The position numbers and the translations under genes are program-made. A DNA stretch of 64,000 nucleotides, taken from NCBI RefSeq assembly GCF_015550595.1, contig NZ_JADNBB010000002.1:124001-188000 (forward strand). The letters are read 5' to 3'. The notes under the pieces are model-generated. The model searched no databases. It was given only the letters and a program-made list of their open reading frames with translations, and was not told the origin of the DNA. Numbering within the stretch: the first letter of the stretch is position 1; every line of letters starts with the position of its first letter. Source of the stretch: Parabacteroides goldsteinii. Lineage in GTDB: Bacteria > Bacteroidota > Bacteroidia > Bacteroidales > Tannerellaceae. Below, piece after piece: positions 1-44,411 of this stretch.

Positions 1-2
1 TT

Positions 3-1892
3 CAGATCTCTCCGAACAAATACGGTGAAGTATTGGCTCTTGTTTCTGCTAAGTTCGATCCGAAAGATCGCGATGGCATTGCAATGACTATTGATACAAT
101 CACAAGTGGCTCTGAAAAGGGTATGTGGGCTCGCTACTATGCGAAAGACTCTATCCGTCTGGCTCCGCAACAGCATGCTTCTGACGTTGAAAGATGGAAT
201 CGCGTATACTTCTTCGACCTGGATGATTACAAACACATTCTGTCATTCGAAGATGAAAAGTGGAAGAAATTCGGTATCTGGGCTCCTTACGGTGTTAATA
301 TTACCGATACGCTGACTGCTTCTATCAAGGGTGACGTGAAAGTTCCTGAAGTATGGTATAGCTCTGACGCTGCTGGTAAGAACAAGATCGATGCATTCCA
401 GTTCGGTGTTGTAAATGGTGGTACTTCTAAAGACTCGGTATTCTATATCCAGGGTCGTGACCTGCCTCATTACGGTACTACTGTAAATGATACGGATCCT
501 AAGGTAGAACAGGAAATCAATGTATTGAGCACTTCTGACTTGTTCACATTCGGAACAAACAAAGCTAAAGAAGTGAAACTGTTCATCCGCGAAAAATCTA
601 TGGAACTGGCTGCTACGGCTGCTGATGCTCCTTACGAATTCAAGGGTGCTGAAGGTGACTTGGTGAACAATGTTCTTCGTGGGGACGTAGCTGCTAAGAT
701 CGCTGTTCGTGCAACTCCGAACGTAGAAGATCTGTGTGACGTAGAAAATGCACTGTCTCTGTCAGCTGTATGTGACGTTCAGAAGAATCTGCCGTTGGCA
801 TTCACTGCCGGTCTGGAAAAACCATATATCAAAGATATGGAACCGGGCGACGTAGGTGGTAGCGACGCTCGTATTAAGTGGACAGCCACTCCGGGTGCTC
901 AGTACTATCAGGTTGCCGTAGGTCGCTTCACTCCGAAGTTCACTTCTGAAGACGTATTTATGTCTGAAGTTCGTGCTGACGATGCAAGCAAGACTATCTG
1001 GGTTGAATTGTTCAACGCAACAGGAGATGTTATCCACCGTGATAATAAAGTTAACTACTGGTTGGAAGTAACTAAAGAATATACTGATGCTGCAGGTAAA
1101 CCTCAGAAAGAGGTAACTAAGGTAAGTGTAGACAACTTCGAACTGCAAGGTAATACGCAACCGATCGACAGAAACTGGGGGTATGCTCCGATTGCCCACC
1201 AGATGGACAACATGGATCTGACAACAGACATCACGAAACCGGTTAAATATACAATCCGCTTGATGGAAGGATTCCAGACAGACGAACACCAGATCGACAT
1301 TTATCTGTTCGATACTCCTGCAACATGGATGGTTAGAAAGCCTGTTAACGGTATGCCTATCAACGGTGGTGCATTTAACACAGGTGACTGGAGAACTGAA
1401 GTAGGTTCATTGCCTATGGCATATTACGAATGGCAGGATGATGTCAATTTCGACGGTGAAGAATCGTTCAAGGTTGCTGCAACATCCACATCGATAGCTG
1501 TTCATAACTTGATCCCGCAGACAGCTTACACTGCACGTGTTCGTGCATTCAATGAGTGTGTCGGTGGTGAAGAAATGATTCCGTCAGAAGACTTCTATGA
1601 CTTCGCTACATCTAAGACTGCTACCTCTACTGGTGACATCTACTTCGATGACGCAGAAGAAGTGGGCGTATCCAACGAATCTATCAATACAACTGCTGTA
1701 ACAGTTCTGGGTGGCCAGGGTAAGGTAACGATCCTGAATGCTGCTAACAAGAAAATTGTCATCAGCAATGTATTAGGTCAGACTATTGCCAACTCAGTAG
1801 TTACTTCCGACAATGTTACATTCGACGCTCCTGTTGGAATCGTAGTTGTAACAATCGAAGGTGAAACAGCTGTTAAGGCAGTCGTTAAGTAA
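3..1892 (+). CDS. DUF6383-type surface protein, C-terminal part (5' end outside window)
   Basis: The frame is open from base 3 with no convincing start, so this is the last ~629 residues of a longer protein cut by the window edge. The middle looks like beta-sandwich, fibronectin III-like repeats (an IKWTATPGAQYYQVAVG stretch, then AYTARVRAFNE further on). The last ~65 residues (NVLGQTIANSVV ... VKAVVK) closely match the C-termini of the genes at 13449 and 36958, which I recognise as the DUF6383 domain of Parabacteroides surface proteins. By analogy with T9SS tails (an 'SNVLGQ' strand, then a hydrophobic strand, then a basic end) this may be a secretion or anchoring tail. That role is inference. 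It is followed by the shared 3' element and a terminator. The family call is fairly sure; the function is unknown. Confidence 0.8.
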   Translation, partial: QISPNKYGEVLALVSAKFDPKDRDGIAMTIDTITSGSEKGMWARYYAKDSIRLAPQQHASDVERWNRVYFFDLDDYKHILSFEDEKWKKFGIWAPYGVNITDTLTASIKGDVKVPEVWYSSDAAGKNKIDAFQFGVVNGGTSKDSVFYIQGRDLPHYGTTVNDTDPKVEQEINVLSTSDLFTFGTNKAKEVKLFIREKSMELAATAADAPYEFKGAEGDLVNNVLRGDVAAKIAVRATPNVEDLCDVENALSLSAVCDVQKNLPLAFTAGLEKPYIKDMEPGDVGGSDARIKWTATPGAQYYQVAVGRFTPKFTSEDVFMSEVRADDASKTIWVELFNATGDVIHRDNKVNYWLEVTKEYTDAAGKPQKEVTKVSVDNFELQGNTQPIDRNWGYAPIAHQMDNMDLTTDITKPVKYTIRLMEGFQTDEHQIDIYLFDTPATWMVRKPVNGMPINGGAFNTGDWRTEVGSLPMAYYEWQDDVNFDGEESFKVAATSTSIAVHNLIPQTAYTARVRAFNECVGGEEMIPSEDFYDFATSKTATSTGDIYFDDAEEVGVSNESINTTAVTVLGGQGKVTILNAANKKIVISNVLGQTIANSVVTSDNVTFDAPVGIVVVTIEGETAVKAVVK

Positions 1893-8898: not shown

Positions 8899-11800
8899 AT
8901 GAAGAAATATATTAAATCAATATTCACATCGAGGAAGCAGCTTGTGCTGCTTCCCCTGATGCTTGTTTCAGGCGGTATCATGCAGGCGCAAACGGCTGCA
9001 CCCGATACTGTGTACGTAAGCTTCAATACGAATACTGCGCTGACGATGACTTATGGTGACAACCTGAGTACGGCTGCCGCGGGTATCAGTGGAGCCAGTT
9101 TCAACTATTTCTATGTGAATGGGGATGGAAGTGAATACGGAAGTATCGGCTCAGGAGTATCATTCAAGTCTCCGGCACAAGCGATCGACATCCTGAAGTT
9201 TTCGGCTACTCCGACAGTGAGCGGTGGCGAGACATTAGGTTTCGTGGCCAATAACCTGACTGAATATTTCCAATATACCAGTCCGAATGTAGTATTCTTT
9301 GTCAGCAACCGGGCCGGTGCTTTTACCAGCCTGCCTTTAACGGTGAATCCGGCTACATTGGATATCGCAGCCCGCGACACCAGCCGTTTCTACGGTGATG
9401 AGAACCCGGCAACGCCCTGGTCTGCCAAAGACTTTGTGTTCAGCGGTTTTGTGAATGGCGATACGGAAGCGATCTTTACCAATTCGCAGGTGAATGTTTT
9501 ACCGGACGTTACGTATGGCGGAGCAGATAAAAACTCGGCTCCCGGTACATTTGTAATCGGTATGACCGGAGGACAAGCAGCCAACTATACACTGAACCTG
9601 CAGGTCTGGTCGGATGCCTGGCCCGATGGTAGAGGGTTGCTGACAGTTAAGCAAGCCCCTCTTACCTTGGCTGTCCCCGACAGTGCCCGTCTGTATGACG
9701 ATGCAAATGTGAAGAATATCTCCGGAAAAGAACTTCTCATCACAGACGGAACTTTGAAGAACGACCAGACACTTGAGGCTTTGTTCGGTAATATCAAATT
9801 CCCGGTTACTCATACAGCAGTTTCCGGTGCATTGGGCACAACCAAAAGTGATGTAGGAACTTATAGTTATGAGTTGAATGCAAATGCAGCTAACACGGTT
9901 GCAACCACTCTTTCTAACTATGATATCCTGGCAATCACCGCCGGTAAATACGAAGTGAAGAAAGACACAATCACTATCACCGTATTCCCGGCAGAAGTAG
10001 AAGTCGTTATCAACGACAAGCCGGTTAAGGTGATGCAGAAGGTGTATGGTGAACCTAATCCGGATGGTTATTTCTATCTGACTAAACGTTTGGAAGAAGG
10101 TAGTGCTCCTTCGTATGCTTTCTCGAAAGCAGCTGAGGCAGTCGATTATATCTCCGCAACAGCCGAAGGCGACAAAGGTTTCAAAGTGGCTCCGCTTGCC
10201 GGATACTTCGATTATGAAGGACGCAAGGCTACTGAAAAGACCGAAGTAAACCTGAAGCGTGAGAAACCGAACCAGAAAGAAGACAGCCTGTATGTCGCCA
10301 AGGTGGACAATGCAGACAAAGTATCTTCTCTGAACTACGCTTTCAAAACAGTAGACGGAACCTTCCTGATCAACCAGCGTCCGTTGGCCATCTGGAAAGT
10401 GATCGTAGACCGCATATATGGTGAAGCCGATAAGGATACGACCTGGACTTTCGAACCGAACGATGCCGAAAAGAAACGCGGGCTCGCCAGCTTCGATGTT
10501 AAATATCAGACAACAACTACTCCTGACGACATTATCGACTTCATGCCGAAAGTAGTCGTTAAGCCGGTTGCTGCCGATAATACCCTGCACGCGGGTTCTT
10601 ACAACGACACCCTGCATATCAAGGTTATTACCGAAAATAAAACAATCCAACCGCCGTATGTGGCAAAGGATCGTAACTATAAGCTGATTATGAACACACT
10701 GGTTCCGGGCACAATGACAAACGACAGTGTACGTCTCGAAGTTGCCAAAGCTCCATTGATTATCCGTCTGGATACCATCAAGAGAGCATTCGGTTCGGCT
10801 GATCCTGAGTTCAACAAAGCGGAAGTCCAGAAAGAGTTTATCTCTTACGAAGGCTTCAAATTGGATGAATCGGCCAATAGCCTCGACTCGACGGCTACCG
10901 TTGCTGTCGGCAACCGTATCAAGAACCTGGTTATCAACAACCGTCCGGAAGGAATTCTGCCGGTAGGAACATACGAACTGACAGGTATTACCGAACTCAA
11001 CAAGGTAAATCCGAACTACGAAATCACCATCGTAGGCAAAGCCCGTTATCAGGTATATCCGGATAATAGCTATGTAATGGTTTGGACGCCGATACAGAAC
11101 GAACTGATCGTGGGCGACCTTGTACGTTTGAATGCAGTCGTTAAACAAGGATCGACCGTAATAGCCGAAGGTTCCCGGATCGTTTACGAATCATCCAACC
11201 CGGCTCTGATCCAGGTAGAAAAGGTAGAAAGTATCTGGTATCTGCGTGCGAAAGCATTGACAGGCGATGAAGGCGTAACGATCACTGCCCGCTACAATGC
11301 AGAGTCCGGACAGGAAGAAGCCTTGAAGTCGGAAGTGTTCAAAGTCTTGCGTCTGAAGAATGAAGCAGACTTCAACGTGATCCTGGGTAACATGGTATTC
11401 GATTACGACGGAACCGGCAAAGAAGCCGATGTGAAGCTGACTGACCTGAAGGGTATCCAGACATATACTCCTATCATTACTTATAACGGTGATCCTGAAC
11501 TGCCGGTTGCGGCAGGTATCTATAACATCTCCATCTTCGTGAAACATAACGGTTCCGACCTGCTTGTCCGCAAAGAAAAGATGCAGATCAAACCGCGCGA
11601 AGTAACCGTGAAACCGAAAGATGCTCTGGTTGCATTCGGTGAAGTAATGCCTGAATCATTCGAATATACCTATTCCGGATTTATCGGCAGCGACGATTTC
11701 AAAGCCGCTTCTGCTCCTACGGTAAAAGTGGCAGGAACAATAACCGGTGCAGGAAATTATACCCTGTATGTCGAAGGTGGCGATCCGGGTGACAACTACA

Positions 11801-12597
11801 CCCTAGTAGGTGGAACCGGAACCCTGACTGTTTCGAAAGCTACACTGACAATCAGTGCCGGTACGGTAGATATCGTTTACGGTGATGAGATACCTGAGCT
11901 GAAACCGGTATACACCGGCTTCGTAGGCAACGACAACCCGGATGCCCTCAACTTCATCTACACAGTGAAGACCAGGGTTAACCCTGTCAACGCAGGCTCT
12001 TACGATCTTATCATCGACTGTCTGAGCTCTGAAGAAGACAACTATGCCGTGACTTTGGTTCCTGGTAAGTTGAATATCGCAAAAGCAGCCGCCGGCCTTG
12101 AATGGTCTGTCGAGTCAACATCGATCACCGTTGGCGACTCTGTTCTGTTGTATGCTTCCTGCGAATCTCCGGCAACAATCTCTTACACAGTTGAAAACAT
12201 CGCTGTCGCAGGTACGAGAAACCATATCGAAGGTGTGCATGTGATCGGTAAGAACGAAGGTATAACGAAGTTGTACATCACAATTCCCGAGTCGACCAAC
12301 CACCTGTCACATCGTGACTCTGTCACCTTCAATGTGAAGCTGGGTACGGTAGGCAACGAATCGATCACCCTGCAGGGTGTAGGTCTGTATCCAACTTTGG
12401 TAGAGAATAATGCAACAGTAGTTTCCGAATCTCCTGTAGATGCCATCATCGTGATCGATGCAGCCGGTAGAGTACAGAAGGTAATCAACAAACCGGAACA
12501 GGTAGTCGACCTGAGCCGGTTGCGTAGCGGTTATTATCTGGTTCGTATCGTTCTGGATAACGGCGAAGCGAAGACTGTCCGTATTATTAAGAAATAA
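8899..12597 (+). CDS. Large secreted MBG-repeat protein with T9SS sorting domain
   Basis: 1232 aa. The N-terminus (MKKYIKSIFTSRKQ, then LVLLPLMLVSGGIMQAQ) is a signal peptide cleaved near residue 31. At least five MBG-like repeats are seen, each opening with a strand followed by a Y/F-G-x-x-x-P type turn: RFYGDENPATPW (~res 167), RIYGEADKDT (~510), AFGSADPEF (~630), AFGEVMPESF (~912) and VYGDEIPELK (~993). A Big-like segment precedes the C-terminus. The last ~80 residues (VGNESI ... VGLYPTLVENN ... GYYLVRI ... RIIKK) match the T9SS type A sorting domain. It follows the 2225-aa MBG gene by 19 nt and ends at a strong terminator. Likely surface adhesin or matrix protein; ligand unknown. Confidence 0.85.
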   Translation: MKKYIKSIFTSRKQLVLLPLMLVSGGIMQAQTAAPDTVYVSFNTNTALTMTYGDNLSTAAAGISGASFNYFYVNGDGSEYGSIGSGVSFKSPAQAIDILKFSATPTVSGGETLGFVANNLTEYFQYTSPNVVFFVSNRAGAFTSLPLTVNPATLDIAARDTSRFYGDENPATPWSAKDFVFSGFVNGDTEAIFTNSQVNVLPDVTYGGADKNSAPGTFVIGMTGGQAANYTLNLQVWSDAWPDGRGLLTVKQAPLTLAVPDSARLYDDANVKNISGKELLITDGTLKNDQTLEALFGNIKFPVTHTAVSGALGTTKSDVGTYSYELNANAANTVATTLSNYDILAITAGKYEVKKDTITITVFPAEVEVVINDKPVKVMQKVYGEPNPDGYFYLTKRLEEGSAPSYAFSKAAEAVDYISATAEGDKGFKVAPLAGYFDYEGRKATEKTEVNLKREKPNQKEDSLYVAKVDNADKVSSLNYAFKTVDGTFLINQRPLAIWKVIVDRIYGEADKDTTWTFEPNDAEKKRGLASFDVKYQTTTTPDDIIDFMPKVVVKPVAADNTLHAGSYNDTLHIKVITENKTIQPPYVAKDRNYKLIMNTLVPGTMTNDSVRLEVAKAPLIIRLDTIKRAFGSADPEFNKAEVQKEFISYEGFKLDESANSLDSTATVAVGNRIKNLVINNRPEGILPVGTYELTGITELNKVNPNYEITIVGKARYQVYPDNSYVMVWTPIQNELIVGDLVRLNAVVKQGSTVIAEGSRIVYESSNPALIQVEKVESIWYLRAKALTGDEGVTITARYNAESGQEEALKSEVFKVLRLKNEADFNVILGNMVFDYDGTGKEADVKLTDLKGIQTYTPIITYNGDPELPVAAGIYNISIFVKHNGSDLLVRKEKMQIKPREVTVKPKDALVAFGEVMPESFEYTYSGFIGSDDFKAASAPTVKVAGTITGAGNYTLYVEGGDPGDNYTLVGGTGTLTVSKATLTISAGTVDIVYGDEIPELKPVYTGFVGNDNPDALNFIYTVKTRVNPVNAGSYDLIIDCLSSEEDNYAVTLVPGKLNIAKAAAGLEWSVESTSITVGDSVLLYASCESPATISYTVENIAVAGTRNHIEGVHVIGKNEGITKLYITIPESTNHLSHRDSVTFNVKLGTVGNESITLQGVGLYPTLVENNATVVSESPVDAIIVIDAAGRVQKVINKPEQVVDLSRLRSGYYLVRIVLDNGEAKTVRIIKK

Positions 12598-12682: not shown

Positions 12683-12822
12683 TTCTTATAACCGGTGTAT
12701 GCATGCGTTGTATGGCGTCTTTCAACCCTCTTTCATTTAAGACTATGACAACTAAGCCGGAACATCACTACATGTAAGGTCTTTCTATATGATAGTTAAA
12801 CCCTAAGTAGCCTACATTAAAA

Positions 12823-12910
12823 AAAGTAAGGCACTAACTGCAAATATGCAAGGCATGCTCTACAAAAAAGTAAGGCTTGCCTTACATATTTGCAAAGCAT
12901 GCCTTACTTT
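12823..12910. repeat. Nested palindromic intergenic element (GTAAGGC type), copy 1
   Basis: Outer arms AAAGTAAGGC / GCCTTACTTT, inner arms TGCAAATATG / CATATTTGCA, and an embedded 16-bp palindrome GTAAGGCTTGCCTTAC at 12870-12885. The 16-bp core recurs, with AA instead of TT in its centre, at 36391-36406, again ~570 nt upstream of a DUF6383 gene. Confidence 0.7.
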
Positions 12911-13164
12911 ATTAAAAGTCCTAAGAAAAGCCATTAATTCCCACGTTCTCAAACCTTAAAGATAATGATGAAAATGCTTAGTTGTAACCATCTTCTGAAA
13001 ATAAGATAGGAAGTCGCTGGAAAACAGTTAGTATCGTACTGTGTAATATATTTAAATGTACGTGCGTACATTAATATATATACTTTGTTATTTTCCTATA
13101 ATATAATAAGTGATTGTTGATTGTTTACACCTTGAAAAGCAATATATTTATGAAATATATTAGG
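12911..13164. other. AT-rich intergenic DNA left of the invertible segment
   Basis: No plausible gene seen. It contains GTACGTGCGTAC (13058-13069) followed by ATTAATATATA, which is also present upstream of the gene at 36958 (36614-36623). It also holds a small inverted repeat AATATATTTATGAAATATATT next to the left arm. In the present orientation the promoter of the invertible segment would transcribe leftwards into this region. Confidence 0.6.
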
Positions 13165-13189
13165 TGACTAGAAAAAACGGTCGTTTATT
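13165..13189. repeat. Left 25-bp inverted repeat of invertible segment
   Basis: Begins TGACTAGAAAAAACGGTCGT and continues TTATT. Its exact reverse complement lies at 13345-13369. All 25 positions match, and the match stops at the next base on each side. Confidence 0.9.
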
Positions 13190-13344
13190 TCCGTCAACAA
13201 AAGTAAGCATAAGTTTTAAACCTGCAATTCTTTTGATAATTTTTTTTCCCTCTCTATATGCTTTCTTATCAATTGGATAGAAAGATAAGTATGAAATTAC
13301 TTCTTTTCATGACAAACTCAAATACCCCACCTGATGATGGCGAT
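13190..13344 (-). promoter_or_regulatory. Invertible promoter segment, present orientation OFF
   Basis: 155 bp between perfect 25-bp inverted repeats. On the minus strand it carries -7 box TACTTTTG (plus-strand 13198-13205), a TTG 19 nt upstream (13225-13227), and the string CAATTGATAAGAAAG further up. The same order and spacing occur on the PLUS strand before the gene at 36958, so in this sequence the promoter faces away from the gene at 13449. Inversion would put the -7 box at about 13329-13336, roughly 106 nt from the ATG after the expected start site. No recombinase gene is in the window. Confidence 0.8.
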
Positions 13345-13369
13345 AATAAACGACCGTTTTTTCTAGTCA
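13345..13369. repeat. Right 25-bp inverted repeat of invertible segment
   Basis: Exact reverse complement of 13165-13189. It lies 79 nt before the ATG at 13449. A small leader hairpin, GCCC / GGGC (13383-13399), sits between the arm and the gene. Confidence 0.9.
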
Positions 13370-13448: not shown

Positions 13449-16400
13449 ATGAACAAAAAGTTTTCTACGCTAATGGCAACGGGCCTACTTCTGTCAGGTG
13501 CGTTGTGCGGTAATGTGAACGCGGCAAAAAAACATGTGATAAATGATGTTGCTGGTTTACAAACAATCGCTCCAGATCCAAGCAACGCTTCTAGAGTTTT
13601 AGGAAATGATGTTGCTGTAGGGGATACTATTTTCTTTGCAAAAGATATAGTATTTCCTAAATATACGATTAATGGAGATAAGAATCATGACTTTCTGAGA
13701 ATTAACAAGAAAGGAATTGTTGTTCTAGCTGACAAAGGTGTTAAAGTAACAGGGCACTTTGATATTGCCGCTGATGAGGTTACAATAAAGGGGCTGAATA
13801 TTGTAAATAACTCAATCGGTTATTTGGTTCAGCAGAAAACAGCTATTTATGTAAATGCAAGTGCTAAAATTCATGAAGGAGAGGGTGATGCTATTACTAA
13901 AGTAACTGTTGAAAATAATACTATTACTCAAGGAACCGTTATTGAAGATGGTATGACTTACGGTATTTTTGTTAATGCAAATAAAGCTCAAAAGGCCGCA
14001 TTCAATATTACAGGAAATACCATTACTGCTAATGCTTTCGCCAAGAATTCTAAGGATGCCAACGGCAAGGATGCTTCTTATAACTCAGCAGCTATCGCAT
14101 TTACAGAATTAGCTAGTACATCTCAGGATGTATCAAAAATCCTTGCAAAGAATACATATAAGGATTGTGCAATTGATTATTTGGATGAAAGACCAACTCT
14201 AACGAAGGCTGCTGCAACAACTTATGTGAATAAGGCACAAGTTACTTATGATGCAACTCGTCCGGAAGCAGTAGTTGAATTAGCTAGTTATTATTCAGAA
14301 AATAGTAAGTCATTGGTTGTTAAAGGCGCTAGTGCTTTAAATGTAGTTTCTGCGATTAATGCGGCTGATACAAAAACAGCTGTTCCAGAGGACTTTGCTG
14401 TTGTGGCAGGTAATGTAAATGTTATTGGTGGTACGGCTGCTGCATTAAATCCTTCATTGGAAAATGTTGTATTAACAGTAACAAGTGCTGGAAGTGCGAA
14501 TGCAACCGTAGCTGTTGATTATACTAAAACAGATGACAGTCTTGCAAAGGAATACACCGCAACAGAACTTAACAAAATTCTGGGCGATGGCTTCATCTTA
14601 ACATTAACTGATGTAGATGACAAAGCTATTGATAATGGCGATGTTATAAGTGAAAAGTTACTGACTGCAACAGGAACTACTAGTGAGTTTAAGTTGATGT
14701 CAGGTAAGAAATATTTGACTGTTGTTGCTGAACAATGGGGTAATATTACTGATGCTCCTTACAAAGTAAAATTTGTAGACAAAGAAGCTGATGCTACTGA
14801 ATTTAAAATTACAAATGTAGATGGTAAGTTAGCTATCAGCTCAAAAGTTGGTTCTGACAATGTTTATTTGACAGTCGTTTCTACAGATTTAGGCACAGTA
14901 TTGACTGCTGTTAAGTCTGATGTTGTTAAGACTGATTTGACTGCTGTTCTTAGCAAAACAAACATGGTTAACGGTAAGGTTGATGAAAAGAACAACCCGT
15001 TGTTAAACAAATATGTAACATTTACTTTCGCAACAGCAGACAAGAACATTGCTGCTAAAGACGGTAAAGTATTAGGTCTTGACAATAACGGTGGAAATGC
15101 AATGGATTTAGTTGCTGCCGACAGATATCTGCAATCTAAACCGGAAGGTCAGTGGGCTGTAACTCTGGAAAATGATTCAGAATACAACTTCAAGTTCACA
15201 AACCGTGAAAAGAATGTTTCTTTCTCTGCTTCTGCTCTGTATCTGATTGATGCTAAGACAAACAAATATGCAGTTGTTTATAATGGCGGAACTAGTACTT
15301 TCTCTGGTGGTGTAAGAGATACTTTCGTTATCAATGGTGTTGATTTGAAACTGGTTTCTAAAGATTACTATGTAAACTACAAGAACGACGAAATCAAAGA
15401 TACACAGTATAAGATGGCTATCGCTTCTACAGAAACAACAGACTTCTATGTAACTGAAAACCACGAAGGCAAACACTTGTTGGGTCTTACTAAAGAAACT
15501 GCTAATTCTGTAAACTGGAAAGTCGTTGCTACAAAAGATACAGTTCTTTTGATCAACAACTATGGTAAATATGACGAAGATGGCGACTATGTAGCTCAGC
15601 CTGATACAATGAAGATCCCGACTTATGCATTCCAGAATGTTGCTAACGATGAGTATATGACTTATGCTCCGGAAAAATTAGCTTTGGACGAAGATGCTAT
15701 GTATTGCGATCCTAACTCAGTTAAGTTGACAAATGAAAATGATCTGTCTGCTTATGCATTCGTACTGAAGAAAAGAGCTGACGGCTTGTTCAATATCATC
15801 GGTATCAAGAAAGATGGTGATAACTATGTATTAGATCTGAGCAAGAAACTGTTCGGTGCAACTACTGAAAAGAATGGCCAGGTTCAGGTTGAAGAATCAT
15901 GGGAACAGATCAACTCTAACGACTTGTTCAAATTGACACCTGTTGACGCTCCTGAATACCACTTCGTAGAAAATGGTTTCGGTGAAAAGGTTAGCATCTT
16001 CCGTGAAGAAAACGATGCTCAGGTATTGTATGAAAAACGTGATATTAAGTCTGTTGTAGACAACGATACATTGAGCTTCCTGAATATTGATAACGTTTAT
16101 CAGTTCGACAAGATCAATCCATCTATGTTTGTTGATACAGCTTATATCAACAGAGGTGAAAACACTCGTTGGCAGTATTTGTTGGCTGTAAATCCGGAAG
16201 TTCATAACCCTGATACTTGTACAATCCCGGGTCACCCGAGAAATGACCGTATGGTAACAGGCCGCTACTTGATCAACCTGATCGATACAGCTAACGTATA
16301 TGGTGCAACTCACCTGCATAACAACCCGTACATCAACAGAACAGAAGCTGGTGAATATTTGGCTAAACTTTCGTTCGTAGATGCAATGCATATTAACGAT

Positions 16401-16913
16401 ACTCTGATCATCAACCGTAAAGGTGGCGAAGCTGTAAAACTGTTTATGGATACTCCTGACTTCAATGTAGCTAAGTTTGCATTCCGTTATGTAAATCCTG
16501 CCAGCGAATCAGATAAGACATTCAAGATCCAGACTCAGTATAAAGATTATAAGAATGGTGATTTGACTGCTAAAGACAATGCATCTAACGAAGGTTACCT
16601 GAAATGGATCAACGGTACAGTAGTTGTTGTTAACGGTTATGCAAATGGTGATGTATTCGGTATCAACGAAAACGAAGACCGCGATGCAGTAGCTAACGAA
16701 GACGTTACAGTATCTTCAATTAGTGTTGTAGCAACAGACGGTGCAGTTATCATCAAGGGTGCTGAAGGCAAGAAAGTTGTAATCAGCAACGTACTTGGCC
16801 AGACAGTGGCTAATGCAGTAATTTCTTCTGACAACGCTACAATCTCTGCACCTGCCGGTGTAGTTGTAGTAGCTGTTGAAGGTGAAGCAGCTGTAAAAGC
16901 AATCGTAAAATAA
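13449..16913 (+). CDS. DUF6383-type surface protein behind an invertible promoter
   Basis: 1154 aa. The ATG at 13449 (MNKKFSTLMATGLLLSGALCG) matches the start of the paralogue at 36958; an in-frame TTG six bases earlier is not needed. A signal peptide ends near NVNA. Residues ~30-210 look like a right-handed beta-helix (KGIVVLADKGVKVTG, VTVENNTITQG, FNITGNTITANAF). Later parts hold repeated beta-trefoil-like segments (RYLQSKPEGQW, EYMTYAPEKLAL). The last ~65 residues (SNVLGQTVANAVISSDNA ... VKAIVK) are the DUF6383 tail. Several D-S/T-aliphatic motifs (DTI, DSL, DTV, DTM, DTL) fit the Bacteroidetes O-glycosylation consensus, so a surface glycoprotein is plausible. Expression is probably phase-variable because the promoter upstream is invertible and currently reversed. 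Confidence 0.85.
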   Translation: MNKKFSTLMATGLLLSGALCGNVNAAKKHVINDVAGLQTIAPDPSNASRVLGNDVAVGDTIFFAKDIVFPKYTINGDKNHDFLRINKKGIVVLADKGVKVTGHFDIAADEVTIKGLNIVNNSIGYLVQQKTAIYVNASAKIHEGEGDAITKVTVENNTITQGTVIEDGMTYGIFVNANKAQKAAFNITGNTITANAFAKNSKDANGKDASYNSAAIAFTELASTSQDVSKILAKNTYKDCAIDYLDERPTLTKAAATTYVNKAQVTYDATRPEAVVELASYYSENSKSLVVKGASALNVVSAINAADTKTAVPEDFAVVAGNVNVIGGTAAALNPSLENVVLTVTSAGSANATVAVDYTKTDDSLAKEYTATELNKILGDGFILTLTDVDDKAIDNGDVISEKLLTATGTTSEFKLMSGKKYLTVVAEQWGNITDAPYKVKFVDKEADATEFKITNVDGKLAISSKVGSDNVYLTVVSTDLGTVLTAVKSDVVKTDLTAVLSKTNMVNGKVDEKNNPLLNKYVTFTFATADKNIAAKDGKVLGLDNNGGNAMDLVAADRYLQSKPEGQWAVTLENDSEYNFKFTNREKNVSFSASALYLIDAKTNKYAVVYNGGTSTFSGGVRDTFVINGVDLKLVSKDYYVNYKNDEIKDTQYKMAIASTETTDFYVTENHEGKHLLGLTKETANSVNWKVVATKDTVLLINNYGKYDEDGDYVAQPDTMKIPTYAFQNVANDEYMTYAPEKLALDEDAMYCDPNSVKLTNENDLSAYAFVLKKRADGLFNIIGIKKDGDNYVLDLSKKLFGATTEKNGQVQVEESWEQINSNDLFKLTPVDAPEYHFVENGFGEKVSIFREENDAQVLYEKRDIKSVVDNDTLSFLNIDNVYQFDKINPSMFVDTAYINRGENTRWQYLLAVNPEVHNPDTCTIPGHPRNDRMVTGRYLINLIDTANVYGATHLHNNPYINRTEAGEYLAKLSFVDAMHINDTLIINRKGGEAVKLFMDTPDFNVAKFAFRYVNPASESDKTFKIQTQYKDYKNGDLTAKDNASNEGYLKWINGTVVVVNGYANGDVFGINENEDRDAVANEDVTVSSISVVATDGAVIIKGAEGKKVVISNVLGQTVANAVISSDNATISAPAGVVVVAVEGEAAVKAIVK

Positions 16914-36824: not shown

Positions 36825-36854
36825 TTGCGGATAAAAAACTATTGCTTACTTTTG
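36825..36854 (+). promoter_or_regulatory. Promoter of the third DUF6383 gene, productive orientation
   Basis: TTG (36825-36827), 19-nt spacer, TACTTTTG (36847-36854). Order, spacing and flanking bases match the minus strand of the invertible segment at 13190-13344 (ATTGC, then a 19-nt run, then GCTTACTTTTG). The start site should be near 36861, followed by a leader hairpin GCCGAT / ATCGGC (36883-36903). No inverted arms of 10 bp or more were found around it. Confidence 0.65.
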
Positions 36855-36957
36855 CTGATGTATTTGACGATCGTACAAGCAAGCCGATAGAAGATAGATC
36901 GGCATTATTATAGAATAGAACTTAGAATTACTTAGTATTAATATTAAATTTTTGATT

Positions 36958-39900
36958 ATGAACAAAAAGTTTTCTACTTTTTTGGCAGGTGCTGCGCTTT
37001 TGAGTGCAATGTCTGTTTCTGCTGCTCCTGGTGATGCAGTTCAGTCATTGATCTTAGGTCAAAATGCTGGCTTATATCAATTGGCTGCAGAAAATGGTAA
37101 AGTGCTTTCTATGGACAATGAAGGTAATTTAACTGTTGTAACTGCTCCTACTAATTCTACTGGTTTAGCGAACACTCTGTGGTGTGTTGAGGTTGCAACA
37201 CAAGTTCAAGGTCAGGCTCCTAAGTTTGATTTTGTCAATAAAGGAACAGAACGTCGTTTGGATATAACTATGGCTGGTTTGGAAGGATTGGTAAAATATA
37301 CTGCTTCTGATGCTCCAGTTCAAGTTGGTGGAGAAATTTCTGGTTGGGCATTTTCTAAAACTTATGAAAATATAGTAGAAGAAGAAAAGCCGCTTTTTTC
37401 CTATTTTAAGACTGACTCTGTTATTGGATTTGTTTTGACTGGGGATGATGTTGCTGTTGCTAAATGTGGAGCGAATGAAGATGGTGTAACTGTTGCTAAT
37501 TTTGAGAAGTTTACTTTGAAGACATCTGATCTCGTTACTCTAAATGCAAATGAATTGAATACAATTTTAGGTGTTCAAGATGCAGATAAGGGTGTTAAGC
37601 TAACTTTCAAGCCGGATACATTGGGTACTACTTTGGAAAACCCGTTCAGCTCACAAAAATTTGTTGCAGAAGAATCTGGTGATGCTGGTTATCTGAATGT
37701 AAAGAGAGGTGATACTTATTTAAGAGTAGATACTACTTTTACAAATGATAAGGGTGCTCGCTTCCTTGCTTATAAATGGACTTCAGCTGATGACAAGACT
37801 GCTTCAACTATTGGTGAACAGTATAAGTTTAAGTTTACTTACAGCCCTTCAAATGATAGTTTGACTATTCAGGTTAAACAAGCTACATTTGATAATGGTC
37901 GTGTTCTTGAAGCATTTGTTTCATTACAGGATTTGATCAAGGATGAAGCTCGTATCTTAACAGTTGATACATTGGCTCAGAATACAATGATCTCTTTAGG
38001 TTATAAAGGTTGTAATGCTGTTTCAAACAGAACATCTATTGCTTCTGACTTATATGTAATTAAAAATGCTGATAATAAATATTTAGCAGTTCCTTTGTAT
38101 GGTGATAGCACTGCTCAATGGGTTACTCTTGACAAAAATATGGATCCTTGGCATATGCCTGCATTCCAATGGGTTGTAGAGAAAACTCGTACAGCGGCAG
38201 AAATGGAAGCTACTTCCCCTATCAAAATTACAAACCGTGAATTTGGTGTAGTTGTTAATGCTTCTCTGCAATTGTATACTGATGGTACATCTTCAGTGGT
38301 TGGATCTGATATTTCTGCATCTAACTTTATTGCTGACCCTGCAAATGTTAAAGCTAATCCTTATGTGGGTTATAGATATCTGGATTTCGACTCATTGACT
38401 GTAACTACTTATAAATTGAAATATCTACATGAATTTGCAGACGATAAATACATGGGTACTTCAAGTGATGCTACTGATTCTGTATTATATGTAGGTGCTA
38501 AGTCTTCTTTCGAATTAGCAGGTATGGATACATTAGGTGTAAACTATGGTTATACTACAAACGCTATTGCTTCAATGAAACAGCTTGTTAGAAAAGCTTA
38601 TACATTGAAACTGAAATCTACAGATAAATATGTTATGGCTGATGCAGAAAAGAGATATGCTGTATCTGCTACAGGAAAACCAGCTGTGTTCTATCTGAAA
38701 GAAAACAATGATAAGGCAAATACTCACTATTTCGCTTTAATTGATACAGCTTCTTACGCAGATGTTCGTAAGGTCGGTGTTGATGATAACAACGTTTACT
38801 TGAAAGTTCAGAATTTGAAAGAAACTCGTACTTCTGCGTTCTCGGTAGAAATAGATGATGCTCCTCTTTACCGTCGTTTCAACAATGCTGTATTAAATGA
38901 AAGCGCTGTTGATGCTGCTGATAGCTTAAGATTCTTTGAAAATATTCGTCATGAATATTTGATGGATGAAACTAATAAAGAACTGCAGAATGATGGTGTT
39001 AATTACTTAGGTATCTGGACAAAAGATAAAGCTAAAGCCGGTTTGTCATTCCGTATTGATACAGCTTGGGTTACACGTGGTCTTGGCTTTGTTAAACCTC
39101 AGTATTTGATTTCTGTATCTCGTCAGGATCAGGCTGCTATTGCTGGTACTCCTTGTACAGAAAATTCTCATCACGTAGATGCTGAAGGAAATCCGACAGA
39201 TGCTGAACATTGTGTTCACGCTACACCTGGAAGAGATGGTTTCAACTATGGTAAATATCTGGTAAGCTTTGCTGACTCTGTAACATATGTTGGAAAGGAT
39301 AAACCTTATACTGATGTTAAGGATGGTTATACTCGCGTAGGTTTTGTAAAGGCAATTCAAACTGGCGATAGCTTGATCGTATTGGTTAATGGTTATGAAA
39401 ACATGGATCCGAAAGATCTGAATGTAGAAGAAATTATTAAAGCATATACTAAAGCTGGTATTAATGGTAAGTATATCAATGACTTGAGAGGTGATAATCA
39501 CAAAAACTATACTTGGTCATTCCGTTATACAAATCCGGACGTTGCAGTAGGTGTAAGTGAAGAAGGTGCTGAAAACTCATTCTTGATCGAATCTATGGCT
39601 TATGCAGAAGGAACTCCTGCTACAAAGAAAGCTATTGCTCCTGAAAAAGCAGCATGGATCAAGATGCAGAATGGTTGTATTGTATTAACAGATGAAAAAT
39701 CTGAATTCAATAATGCTAAGACTGGTGGTGACGGTGCTTTGGTTTTCAATGTAGAAAACATTGAAAACGATGAAATGGCTACAGATACTAAGGATATCAC
39801 AACTAACACTGTTAGCGTAATTGCTGGTAACGGTACAGTTATTATCAAGGGTGCTGCTAACAAGACTGTTACTATCTCTAACGTTCTTGGTCAGACAATC

Positions 39901-40005
39901 GCTAACACAGTTCTTTCTTCTGACGATGCTACAATCTCTGCTCCTGCTGGTGTAGTTGTAGTAGCTGTTGAAGGCGAAGCTGCTGTTAAAGCAATCGTTA
40001 AATAA
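36958..40005 (+). CDS. DUF6383-type surface protein with a promoter in the productive orientation
   Basis: 1015 aa. The ATG at 36958 gives MNKKFSTFLAGAALLSAMSVSAAPG, a clear signal peptide nearly identical at its start to the gene at 13449. The first half holds trefoil-like segments (LYQLAAENGKVLSMDNEG, GYLNVKRGDTYLRVDT, KYLAVPLYGDS). The region YGKYLVSFADSV onwards aligns with the paralogue's GRYLINLIDTA. The last ~65 residues (SNVLGQTIANTVLSSDDA ... VKAIVK) are the DUF6383 tail. D-S/T-aliphatic motifs (DSV, DTL, DSL, DTA) fit O-glycosylation. It is likely a surface glycoprotein; ligand unknown. Confidence 0.85.
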   Translation: MNKKFSTFLAGAALLSAMSVSAAPGDAVQSLILGQNAGLYQLAAENGKVLSMDNEGNLTVVTAPTNSTGLANTLWCVEVATQVQGQAPKFDFVNKGTERRLDITMAGLEGLVKYTASDAPVQVGGEISGWAFSKTYENIVEEEKPLFSYFKTDSVIGFVLTGDDVAVAKCGANEDGVTVANFEKFTLKTSDLVTLNANELNTILGVQDADKGVKLTFKPDTLGTTLENPFSSQKFVAEESGDAGYLNVKRGDTYLRVDTTFTNDKGARFLAYKWTSADDKTASTIGEQYKFKFTYSPSNDSLTIQVKQATFDNGRVLEAFVSLQDLIKDEARILTVDTLAQNTMISLGYKGCNAVSNRTSIASDLYVIKNADNKYLAVPLYGDSTAQWVTLDKNMDPWHMPAFQWVVEKTRTAAEMEATSPIKITNREFGVVVNASLQLYTDGTSSVVGSDISASNFIADPANVKANPYVGYRYLDFDSLTVTTYKLKYLHEFADDKYMGTSSDATDSVLYVGAKSSFELAGMDTLGVNYGYTTNAIASMKQLVRKAYTLKLKSTDKYVMADAEKRYAVSATGKPAVFYLKENNDKANTHYFALIDTASYADVRKVGVDDNNVYLKVQNLKETRTSAFSVEIDDAPLYRRFNNAVLNESAVDAADSLRFFENIRHEYLMDETNKELQNDGVNYLGIWTKDKAKAGLSFRIDTAWVTRGLGFVKPQYLISVSRQDQAAIAGTPCTENSHHVDAEGNPTDAEHCVHATPGRDGFNYGKYLVSFADSVTYVGKDKPYTDVKDGYTRVGFVKAIQTGDSLIVLVNGYENMDPKDLNVEEIIKAYTKAGINGKYINDLRGDNHKNYTWSFRYTNPDVAVGVSEEGAENSFLIESMAYAEGTPATKKAIAPEKAAWIKMQNGCIVLTDEKSEFNNAKTGGDGALVFNVENIENDEMATDTKDITTNTVSVIAGNGTVIIKGAANKTVTISNVLGQTIANTVLSSDDATISAPAGVVVVAVEGEAAVKAIVK

Positions 40006-41723: not shown

Positions 41724-41731
41724 TACCTTTG
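41724..41731 (+). promoter_or_regulatory. -7 box for the B12 operon
   Basis: TACCTTTG, directly upstream of the riboswitch. Confidence 0.55.
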
Positions 41732-41740
41732 TACCCGATT

Positions 41741-41914
41741 TTGGTGTCACGCTTCCAATTCCACGGAAAAGTGATGAAAAGGGAATCAGGTGTAAATCCT
41801 GAACAGACCCGCTGCTGTAAGCTCCGCCAAAGTCTTTGAGCACGACTCAATCCACTGTTCGCAATGAATGGGAAGGACGCTCAAAGATGGAGTAAGTCAG
41901 AAGACCTGCCAAGA
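41741..41914 (+). promoter_or_regulatory. Cobalamin riboswitch
   Basis: The conserved core is present: GGGAATCAGGTGTAAATCCT, then GAACAGACCCGCTGCTGTAA (41781-41820), and the B12 box AAGTCAGAAGACCTGCC (41894-41910). The element ends ~145 nt before the TonB receptor ATG, and an expression platform hairpin may lie between. It should shut off the receptor operon when cobalamin is plentiful. Confidence 0.92.
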
Positions 41915-42059
41915 TAAGAAGTTTAAAGCTTTCGGGAGATAAGGCTAAAAACATATGAGAAAGAACATTCATCTACTTTACCGGAGGTTCTGCCTGTTCA
42001 TGTGTTCTATTGTTTCTTTCATCGAAAGCATGTAAAAAACAATTAATGAATTTGGTGAA

Positions 42060-44411
42060 ATGAGAGGTTTCATACATGTATTTCTTTTATTGAGTTGTTT
42101 GTTTCCAGTAAGTCTGGCGGCACAGAATAAAGTGATTCTATCCGGCGAAGTGAAAGAGAAGGATGGGACACCGCTTCCGTTGGCTACTGTCGCTATAGAA
42201 AATACGATTTCGGGAACGTATACAGACGACCGGGGACGTTATTCACTGTCGGTAATCCCCGGCAAACGCACTCTTATAATTACCCTGTTAGGTTACAACA
42301 CCATAAAGACCGTTGTCGATATCCGTAAAAATATGACAATGAATTTCACGATGGAAGAAAACTCCATAACCCTGAATTCGGTTGAAGTATACGGTAAAAC
42401 GAAAACCCAACAGGTGAAAGAAAGTGCTTTTGCAGTCAATGCGTTGGATGTTAAACCACAGATCAACACTCTGAAGAATCTGAATGATATGGTGAACCGT
42501 ACAACCGGTATTAAGATTCGGGAAGAGGGTGGAGTCGGTTCAGACTTCGACTTGTCTATCAATGGATTATCAGGAAATTCCGTTCGTTACTTTATTGATG
42601 GGATGCCTCTGGATACAAAAGGAAGCGGTGTCTCGCTGGCAAATCTTCCTGTCAATATCATTGACAGGGTGGAAATATATAAAGGGGTAGTTCCTGCCAG
42701 CTTGGGAGCAGATGCTTTGGGGGGGGCTATCAATATTATTACCAGTCAGGAAAAAAAGAATTACCTGGATGTTTCTTATGGTACAGGTTCTTTCCATACG
42801 CATAGAACTGACCTGAATGCCCAATTCGTAGAACCGAAGACCGGATTGATCATCAAGCCGACTATCGGAGTCAATTATTCGAAGAACGATTATAAGATGA
42901 AAGGCGTTGAGGTATGGGATGAAGATAGCCGTAAATATATTGAAGTCAACCGTAAACGGTTCCATGACGATTATTTTTCCTTGTTGGGCCAATTGGAAGC
43001 CGGCTTTGTCGATAAAGCGTGGGCAGATGCTTTCTTTGTTTCCGGGTCTTATTCCAAAATAGATAAAGAAATACAGACAGGGTCTATCCAGACAAAGGTG
43101 ATCGGTAATGCGGAGCGTCATTCCGATGCATGGAATGTATCAGCCCGTTATCAAAAGCGGTTTGAGAAAATTAATACAAATGCATCGCTTTCCCATACCT
43201 GGGACGCATCGCTTACTGTCGATACGGCTTATCGTATCTATGATTGGAACGGAGATTTTACTCCTTCATCCCGTAATGAGCTTAATGGCCGTGGGCGTTC
43301 CATACGTCATTACAACCGCCCTATGACTATTTTTCGAGGAGGCGTCGATTATGCGATCAACCGGCATCATTCAGTCAGTTTGAACTATCTGCTTAACCGT
43401 ACCGGAAATAAACGTCGTGATGATGTCGACGAAACTTTTGAGCCAACCAATGATGTGCTGACCAAGCATATTCTCGGATTGACTTATAATCAGTCTTTTT
43501 TCGACGGAAGATGGGAGAGTACCGTTTTTATTAAAGATTATATCAATGCCACCTCTATCGAACAAAACGATCTTGCCTGGATAACCGGCTCGGAAAATCT
43601 CAAAGGACATTTTTCGAAGAGTTATTGGGGAGGTGGTTTGGGGCTGCGCTATACCATTTGGGATGTACTGGCGGGAAAGGTTTCTTATGAACATAGTGTG
43701 CGCCTTCCTTTGTCGCGTGAACTGCTTGGAAACGGAACGACTATCTATCCGAATCTCGCCCTTCATCCCGAAAGCAGTGATAATATAAACCTGGGTCTTT
43801 TTGGTAACTGGTATCCTTCTTACGGTCATTCCTTCTATTATGAGGTTAACGGATTTCTTCGGTTTGTCGACGATTATATTCAGGCAACCGTATCGGAAAA
43901 AGAAGGTATGATGCAATACGAGAATATTCCGGCTGTACATGTGAAAGGTATTGAAGGGGAGATGCGCTACAATTGGAAAAATAGCTTTCAGATAATGGTC
44001 AACTGTAGTTATAATGAAGCACGTGACCAAAAGAAATATAAAACCGACGGTAAGCCTTCGGCTACTTATAATAACCGTGTACCTAACCGTCCCTGGGTGT
44101 ATAGCAATGCTGATGTAAGCTATACATTTCATGATCTGGCACAGAAGGAAGATGATCTTCGCATCGGATATTCCTGGCAATGGATACACTGGTTTTACTT
44201 ATCGTGGGAAGCATACGGAGCCCTTGAAAGTAAGTCGCGTATACCGACTCAGAATGTATCGAATCTTAATGTGAGCTATTCATGGATGAAAAGACGCTAT
44301 AATGTGTCATTGGAATGTAGTAACCTGTTTGACGCTACGGTTTATGACAATTATAAACTCCAGAAGCCCGGTCGTGCATTCTTCGCTAAATTCAGATTAT
44401 TCATTAATTAA
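42060..44411 (+). CDS. btuB: TonB-dependent receptor for cobalamin (BtuB-like)
   Basis: 783 aa. Signal peptide to residue ~21 (LFPVSLAAQN). A carboxypeptidase-regulatory-like domain follows (~27-105, SGEVKEKDGTPLPLATVAI), then a plug (~115-225, with VRYFIDGMPLDTKGSGVSLA and VPASLGADALGGAINI), then a beta-barrel ending in FRLFIN with a terminal aromatic pattern. It takes up vitamin B12 or a related corrinoid at the outer membrane, powered by TonB. The substrate call rests on the riboswitch directly upstream. It is the first gene of the operon with the DUF4374 lipoprotein 18 nt downstream. Confidence 0.88.
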   Translation: MRGFIHVFLLLSCLFPVSLAAQNKVILSGEVKEKDGTPLPLATVAIENTISGTYTDDRGRYSLSVIPGKRTLIITLLGYNTIKTVVDIRKNMTMNFTMEENSITLNSVEVYGKTKTQQVKESAFAVNALDVKPQINTLKNLNDMVNRTTGIKIREEGGVGSDFDLSINGLSGNSVRYFIDGMPLDTKGSGVSLANLPVNIIDRVEIYKGVVPASLGADALGGAINIITSQEKKNYLDVSYGTGSFHTHRTDLNAQFVEPKTGLIIKPTIGVNYSKNDYKMKGVEVWDEDSRKYIEVNRKRFHDDYFSLLGQLEAGFVDKAWADAFFVSGSYSKIDKEIQTGSIQTKVIGNAERHSDAWNVSARYQKRFEKINTNASLSHTWDASLTVDTAYRIYDWNGDFTPSSRNELNGRGRSIRHYNRPMTIFRGGVDYAINRHHSVSLNYLLNRTGNKRRDDVDETFEPTNDVLTKHILGLTYNQSFFDGRWESTVFIKDYINATSIEQNDLAWITGSENLKGHFSKSYWGGGLGLRYTIWDVLAGKVSYEHSVRLPLSRELLGNGTTIYPNLALHPESSDNINLGLFGNWYPSYGHSFYYEVNGFLRFVDDYIQATVSEKEGMMQYENIPAVHVKGIEGEMRYNWKNSFQIMVNCSYNEARDQKKYKTDGKPSATYNNRVPNRPWVYSNADVSYTFHDLAQKEDDLRIGYSWQWIHWFYLSWEAYGALESKSRIPTQNVSNLNVSYSWMKRRYNVSLECSNLFDATVYDNYKLQKPGRAFFAKFRLFIN

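Follow-up and report, generated by a model that had tools for sequence, protein, structure and literature searches.

The window analysed here, the whole stretch of 64 kb, corresponds to C22:124001-188000 of its own genome (G000; 6.53 Mb, 85 contigs) and contains two genes, starting at 13449 and 36958, that both terminate in a DUF6383 domain, together with the 3' part of another DUF6383 gene at its left end (Table 1). Upstream of the 13449 gene the arm TGACTAGAAAAAACGGTCGTTTATT at 13165-13189 is followed by its exact reverse complement at 13345-13369, with 155 bp separating both, and this is the sole perfect 25-mer inverted repeat in the 64-kb window with copies not more than 1 kb apart. The original prediction had claimed perfect 25-bp arms bounding these 155 bp and a promoter TTG-N19-TACTTTTG on the minus strand directed away from the 13449 gene; the arm coordinates are exact, the pair is unique in the window and the promoter positions were reproduced. 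Scanning the plus strand of the 13165-13369 segment yielded no TTG-N19-TAnnTTTG, and this strict motif occurs four times on both strands of the 64 kb, two of the occurrences being the promoters at 13198-13227 and 36825-36854. The element at 13165-13369 shows the Mpi/fin arrangement, i.e., inverted repeats around a segment of 100–200 bp with a single promoter. Rather than the 25-bp arms, two 32-bp dyads at 13165-13196 and 13338-13369, located 173 bp apart, probably serve as functional sites.

Directly 5' of the inverton, positions 8899-12597 encode a protein of 1232 aa that contains three stretches of MBG domain as well as a T9SS sorting tail (TIGR04183). Between this upstream gene and the inverton, imperfect 22-nt repeats (AAAAAAGTAAGGC..TTGCCTTAC) occur at 12814-12919 as overlapping direct and inverted copies, and one hairpin among them is terminator-like on the minus strand. 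A leftward transcript from the OFF-orientation promoter could end at the hairpin at 12870-12885. The 5' untranslated region of the 13449 gene lies outside the invertible segment, and its last ~26 nt are common across the DUF6383 family. Sigma-70-like sites are found 11 times near the inverton, an AT-rich stretch, with 3.8 expected; those on the plus strand towards the 13449 gene (13132-13161, 13233-13262, and 13309-13338) are not of the Bacteroides type and are compatible with some expression of this gene even in the OFF state.

Table 1. Features at the invertible segment and at the always-facing promoter (positions in the window).
Feature	Positions	Strand	Remarks
3' part of another DUF6383 gene	1..1892	+	start at ~C22:120772, outside the window
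Terminator-like hairpin	12870..12885	-	consensus match only
Left recombination site, 32-bp imperfect dyad	13165..13196	+	earlier 25-bp arm: 13165-13189
Spacer between the 25-bp arms, within the invertible segment	13190..13344		
OFF-orientation promoter	13198..13227	-	TTG 13227-13225, 19-nt spacer, -7 box TACTTTTG 13205-13198
Right recombination site, 32-bp imperfect dyad	13338..13369	-	earlier 25-bp arm: 13345-13369
5' untranslated region of the 13449 gene, outside the invertible segment	13370..13448	+	
DUF6383 protein gene	13449..16913	+	1154 aa with leader MNKKFSTLMATGLL and C-terminus VEGEAAVKAIVK; predicted to be silent in present orientation
DUF6383 domain, probable T9SS sorting domain	16689..16907	+	within the conserved 3' end, the cassette joint in the first clade
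Armless homologous promoter	36825..36854	+	TTG 36825-36827, 19-nt spacer, TACTTTTG 36847-36854, towards the 36958 gene
Possible remnant right-hand site, CGATCG	36868..36873		roughly where the right-hand core would sit
DUF6383 gene at the always-facing site	36958..40005	+	1015 aa; coding middle unalignable with the same-site gene of G037

An alignment of 15 DUF6383 C-termini agrees best over the last ~70 residues. The structure model of the 13449 protein (mean pLDDT 68.7, pTM 0.40) is confident solely in the last ~60 residues, which form a seven-stranded domain with a pLDDT of ~90. Foldseek with this C-terminal model returned the RgpB CTD (twice), a T9SS translocon chain and a T9SS cargo CTD at ranks 1, 2, 3, and 5, and a biofilm protein at rank 4, no match being at E 0.001 or better; the 13449 protein compared with the Por_Secre_tail model likewise gave no match at 0.001. 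Going by the modeled fold, the C-terminus of the protein is probably a sorting domain for type IX secretion, and a T9SS component, GldK, is encoded in the same genome (551 bits, C11:104527-105897). The 13449 protein shows no enrichment of the O-glycosylation motif (8 compared with 5.4 expected), while 179 motifs were counted across a family of 20 where 99.5 are expected. Two DUF6383 frames of another genome (L276 and L277 on G037:C7) seem interrupted, the longest leader frame stopping before the sorting domain. In Parabacteroides distasonis, phase-variable Dgp glycoproteins were reportedly described by Fletcher et al. in 2007, as the title of that work has it. The Dgp promoters of this species invert. 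DgpA and DgpC of P. distasonis are tabulated as glycoproteins in a table of PMC2943079, and a passage of PMC4030854 describes the T. forsythia S-layer proteins as CTD proteins whose C-terminal regions resemble putative B. distasonis S-layer glycoproteins; the DUF6383 alignment itself matches two T. forsythia loci, L240 (41%) and L262 (39%). The original prediction had called the 13449 gene surface glycoprotein-like. Its place in the DUF6383 family can now be added, and it is probably of the P. distasonis Dgp kind when compared by description rather than by sequence; we infer that the protein would be surface-exposed and glycosylated.

Taking the 205-bp element as query against its own genome resulted in 25 matches, which were merged by hand to 19 places including itself, leaving similar elements at 18 other places; the original prediction had suggested a genome search for the arm sequence. 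A DUF6383 search of the same genome gave 24 matches, of which 23 were classified (one of two C29 pieces was dropped): 16 are OFF, none is ON, and seven are without arms. The full domain is encoded by 20 genes; in 16 of these a promoter lies between two dyad sites, and all 16 promoters point away from the gene. The dyads of these invertons are mostly 163–174 bp apart, the promoter adjoins the distal site, and its spacer measures 19 nt in 15 cases and 16 nt in one. The gene ending at position 1892 of the window has its own OFF inverton outside the window, at ~C22:120388-120592, and the inverton at C11:115107 has an extra site between promoter and gene. Two adjacent DUF6383 genes with similar invertons, one of which has such an additional recombination site, lie at G000:C11:108000-127000 (L018). 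Among the places listed, at least five further invertons with dyad sites were found, at a DUF3575/fimbrillin cluster (one), DUF6261 genes (two), and capsule loci (two), and in all five the promoter points away from the target as chosen by the analyst; at one of them (L025) it is a MarR-type gene, not the DUF6261 target, that lies ahead of the promoter scored as OFF. A sixth candidate, L028, is without an arm pair. The invertons with like sites that adjoin DUF6261 genes are situated at 8529-8716 of L024 and 7370-7584 of L025, and in the latter locus the DUF6261 gene is followed on its own strand by one for a 1232-aa protein with Ig-like repeats. All 21 switches examined in this genome are OFF in the assembly, for five of them only if the targets are rightly assigned.

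The classification was extended to seven genomes, G001, G017, G021, and G023 of the ten genomes searched being left out, and comprises 114 rows, namely the 23 of the own genome and 91 of the 119 matches in six other genomes, the remaining matches being weak or unlisted. Seventy rows are OFF, three are ON (one each in G037, G013, and G014) and in 41 no arm pair reaches the score threshold; eight of these 41 have a promoter facing away at the usual place and weaker arms. Compared with equal odds, 16 OFF out of 16 corresponds to p = 3e-5 and 70 out of 73 to 1e-17, orthologues in the latter figure being non-independent. In other named genomes, which were kept apart from the main count, 57 of 77 loci, largely fragments, were classified (20 of P. 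gordonii, which is G009, were omitted): 11 OFF, one ON, one with boxes both ways, 27 without arms and 17 cut by a contig end or without usable start. ON invertons were also detected in G011, G017, and probably G026 in a scan for the ON pattern; L081, L192, and L097 were excluded from the OFF/ON count because they had been selected as ON. Assemblies display majority states, and the count therefore reflects an OFF bias in the sequenced populations, which may arise through switching rates or selection; presumably each of the 21 switches is ON in a minority of cells.

The dyad sites are 32 bp long with a consensus close to TGACTAGAAAAAACGATCGTTTTTTCTAGTCA. The left site and the right site were each chosen independently from the outer 12+12 bases, and in three related genomes a pair was obtained for 52 of 75 genes. 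In 44 of these 52 invertons both sites have a matching central hexamer, a number inflated by common ancestry of orthologous pairs; the shuffled mean is 17.5, and none of 10,000 shuffles reaches 44. In G000 alone the cores agree in 15 of 16 invertons (shuffled mean 5.7; 0 of 5,000 shuffles), and the sole miss (C11:115107) is due to a distal site beyond the search range, which led to picking the wrong pair; in most other misses one or two bases differ. The core types comprise CGTTCC, CGATCG, GGATCG, CGACCG, and CGGTCG, plus rarer ones. Two orthologous pairs are found in opposite orientation between species. The OFF inverton at C4:161010 of G000 and the ON inverton L147 of G037 have like-oriented flanks of 95% and 98% identity, whereas the 131-bp spacer is 95% identical when reversed and 63% identical when compared directly. 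In the pair L161 of G012 and L172 of G014 the flanks are 82% and 100% identical, the spacer 78% reversed and 48% direct. Such segments therefore flip, and by extension the 13165-13369 segment itself would do so as well. Its own orthologues in G037 and G009 are OFF in the same orientation as in the window, the spacer 13190-13344 being 95% identical to that of L139 (G037) and 83% identical to that of L121 (G009). For P. distasonis, PMC5903667 reports inversion sites detected from reads. The original view of the element as a likely inverton in the OFF state is hence upheld by the arms, the promoter, the 18 similar places in the genome, and the two inverted orthologous pairs.

A recombinase search, likewise proposed in the original prediction, identified a serine invertase of the Mpi family at G000:C3:53776-54369 (L030; NCBIfam NF009949, 323 bits, cut-off 272) and 48 integrase-domain matches in the genome. 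Six places carry a resolvase domain, two of them further members of the Mpi family (~180 bits) that stay under the cut-off; across the genus, the family is found above the cut-off in 31 of 38 genomes. The 64-kb window is without any of the listed resolvase or integrase matches. Short dyad-symmetric sites fit Hin-type serine invertases, and the repeats of B. fragilis have reportedly been likened to hin repeats, as in the title of a work by Patrick from 2003 that is among the references of PMC3090145. Because of its family, the shape of the sites, and the B. fragilis precedent (PMC4747536), we infer by analogy that the Mpi-family enzyme at C3 most likely acts on these sites.

The homologous promoter that had been noted in front of the 36958 gene faces this gene with the same spacing, its box lying at -111. 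An ON inverton was considered for this promoter and rejected, as the 480 bp upstream contain no arm pair at threshold. Among the rows examined, exactly one armless promoter at -108 to -115 exists per genome in all seven genomes (36958 in the window, L117, L135, L155, L167, L173, and L183), and the sequence upstream of 36958 is 97% identical to L135 over 224 nt and 91% identical to L117 over 203 nt. Judged from its sequence, the 36958 promoter is an armless, conserved, always-facing member of the same promoter family. Other armless DUF6383 members have promoters at ~-384 to -390, at -133/-134 or at -50, and the 36958 site is therefore not the sole constitutive candidate. The armless promoters at ~-384 to -390 precede a long leader in L101, L105, L119 (G009), L143 (G037), L208, L226, L228, L245, and L247, and this leader looks conserved between L101 and L143. 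These genes were rejected as distant ON invertons, the inverted repeats present up to 900 bp upstream (774 bp in L226 and 431 bp in L247) not being of the dyad-site kind. A search of the long leaders of L101, L119, and L143 against Rfam at the gathering score gave no match.

The content of the loci was compared between species, with one genome per species, using 22 genes of G000, 24 of G037, and 26 of G009 with up to 1.1 kb upstream and up to 1.9 kb downstream. Cross-genome pairs matching in both flanks were taken as positional orthologues, and 19 pairs qualify; the coverage of the coding middle is 0.00 in seven, 0.45 in one and 0.83–1.00 in 11 of them. The seven replaced pairs stem from four locus groups and are therefore non-independent. 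The 5' junctions of the replaced cassettes fall within the first ~50 nt of the gene. The 36958 gene and L280 of G037 are aligned to +21 nt and again from 203 nt before the stop, followed by 1.9 kb at 94%; the junctions are at +33 and -215 for C4:10718 and L282, at +49 and -185 for C6:86408 and L275, a pair below the downstream threshold, and at +27 and -152 for the 13449 gene and L302 of G009. Compared with L284 of G037 the 13449 gene is an ordinary orthologue save for a gap at ~59-322, and the 36958 gene is 69% identical over 432 nt inside the gene to the P. gordonii site L301, which is therefore not a clean case. Two pairs serve as contiguous controls, C22:125668 and L291, itself behind an inverton (93.5% over 8.1 kb), and C22:339297 and L294 (94% over 6.5 kb).

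Cassettes that occupy the always-facing site of one species have relatives at inverton-type loci of a different species. The armless-site gene L280 of G037 aligns with L300 of G009 from -25 to stop+15 (89% and 77%), L300 being of the inverton type with two sites of matching cores and a box facing away, its arms under the threshold and its box without well-placed TTG, and the armless loci L280 and L301 have common flanks and a different coding middle. In a second clade the inverton gene L307 of G012 can be aligned with the armless-site genes L304 of G014 and L305 of G013 from ~-38 to the stop (79–80%); the flanks of L307 match those of L308 of G014 (83–92%), the gene of which is similar to the one at the armless site of P. 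gordonii, L301 (73% to +2540). The 3' junction is not at the extreme end in this clade, as the final ~1.2 kb of the gene are common to L307 and L308 and likewise to the armless pair L304 and L306. Moreover, C84:44864 has the flanks of L286 of G037, but the promoter and gene of L289 (95.5% over 3.6 kb). These patterns suggest that homologous recombination would exchange cassettes via the ends they have in common, be it between loci of one genome or following import.

Taken together, we consider it highly probable that 13165-13369 is an Mpi/fin-type phase-variable promoter switch caught OFF, one of 16 such switches at DUF6383 genes and at least five others. The two dyad sites would be brought together by a serine invertase, most likely the Mpi-family one whose gene lies outside the window at C3, and inversion of the ~173 bp between the dyad centres would leave the one TTG-N19-TAnnTTTG promoter pointing either at the gene or away from it. 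The product of this gene is a large protein of the Dgp or S-layer-glycoprotein kind, probably with a sorting domain for type IX secretion; transcription of the 13449 gene would follow the orientation of the segment. A tentative extension, which we place slightly short of probable, is a two-layer system of many OFF-biased invertible sockets and one conserved always-on socket, in which cassettes recombine among sockets via the common leader/5' UTR and the common 3' part of the gene. Inversion would then select the active socket and recombination would alter the content of each socket, including the permanently expressed one.

Several other explanations have to be weighed against this. The element might be a relic in which the arms persist and the segment is locked OFF in the lineage, the gene being merely silent; all 21 switches of the genome are OFF by the analyst's target assignment and so are the orthologues of the window element in G037 and G009, but perfect arms, cores that match in 44 of 52 pairs, an open Mpi equivalog in the genome, and two orthologous pairs with such sites that flipped between species make this highly improbable. 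The OFF bias could also reflect coordinated switching with at most one member ON per cell, in line with not more than one ON inverton per genome in seven genomes (0, 0, 0, 0, 1, 1, 1). However, an independent ON frequency of ~4% (3/73) predicts nearly the same pattern, and minority states are hidden in consensus assemblies, so that we regard mutual exclusion as unlikely compared with an independent OFF bias.

With respect to the enzyme, a tyrosine recombinase working on the sites instead of an Mpi-type serine invertase is distinctly unlikely: the short dyad-symmetric sites suit invertases of the Hin type, and none of the integrases listed is near an inverton, the closest among them, at C22:91506, being ~29 kb from C22:120388, although action at a distance is possible. 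The 48 integrase-domain matches provide candidates for it, and tyrosine recombinases invert other Bacteroides promoters according to PMC4747536. Fast coding divergence instead of cassette replacement, finally, could lead to loss of similarity between conserved flanks, since surface proteins evolve quickly, the 13449 gene is alignable with L284 of G037 across most of its length and one pair is intermediate (0.45); yet coverage values for the coding middle fall into two nearly separate classes in the 19 positional pairs, and close relatives of some cassettes occur at different loci, such as L280 of G037 and L300 of G009 from -25 to stop+15, which renders this explanation very unlikely.

Returning to the promoter switch with exchangeable cassettes, several known systems are similar in part. 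The Dgp system of P. distasonis has the genus and a gene family behind invertible promoters in common with the loci described here, which differ in belonging to genomes near P. gordonii and in comprising 16 invertons before DUF6383 genes. Hin/hix of Salmonella also combines short dyad-symmetric sites with a serine invertase, whereas many separate segments are present here. Expression-site cassette variation is known from trypanosome VSG, Borrelia vlsE, and Neisseria pilE, and the DUF6383 loci may be likened to these by one presumably always-on site, a largely silent repertoire and a variable middle between conserved ends; in contrast, the repertoire genes here have their own leaders and flippable promoters, and replacement is observed between species only. 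In B. fragilis, Mpi controls 13 promoter regions, seven of which are capsule promoters (PMC4747536). One global serine invertase, many distant promoter segments, TAnnTTTG promoters, and capsule targets are shared with that system, while the targets here are mostly DUF6383 genes and all are OFF in the assembly. In a literature search that left subscription papers mostly outside, none of the papers joins Parabacteroides with gene conversion and antigenic variation, or Parabacteroides with surface glycoproteins and DNA inversion; DUF6383 occurs in two. The inverton structure itself, here in OFF orientation, is of a known kind; apparently new, the Dgp work of 2007 aside, are an OFF state across the whole genome, an always-facing site that is conserved, and the cassette turnover.

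Phase-variable surface proteins affect the encounters of gut Bacteroidales with phages, immunity, and neighbours. If OFF is the default state and cassettes move back and forth between sites with a switch and the always-on one, these species would alter their surface repertoire on two time scales by two mechanisms, which raises the testable questions whether a silent cassette enters the always-on site within a strain and whether more than one switch is ON per cell.

Two minor observations concern other places. For the upstream flank of C22:15781 (94%) and for the gene and downstream flank of C84:168187 (92–97%) the best match is the same locus, L281 of G037, as if flanks had been exchanged between loci near the inverton. 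In the window, a cobalamin riboswitch (Rfam RF00174, 103 bits) is located on the plus strand at 41725-41927, 5' of an ORF at 42060.
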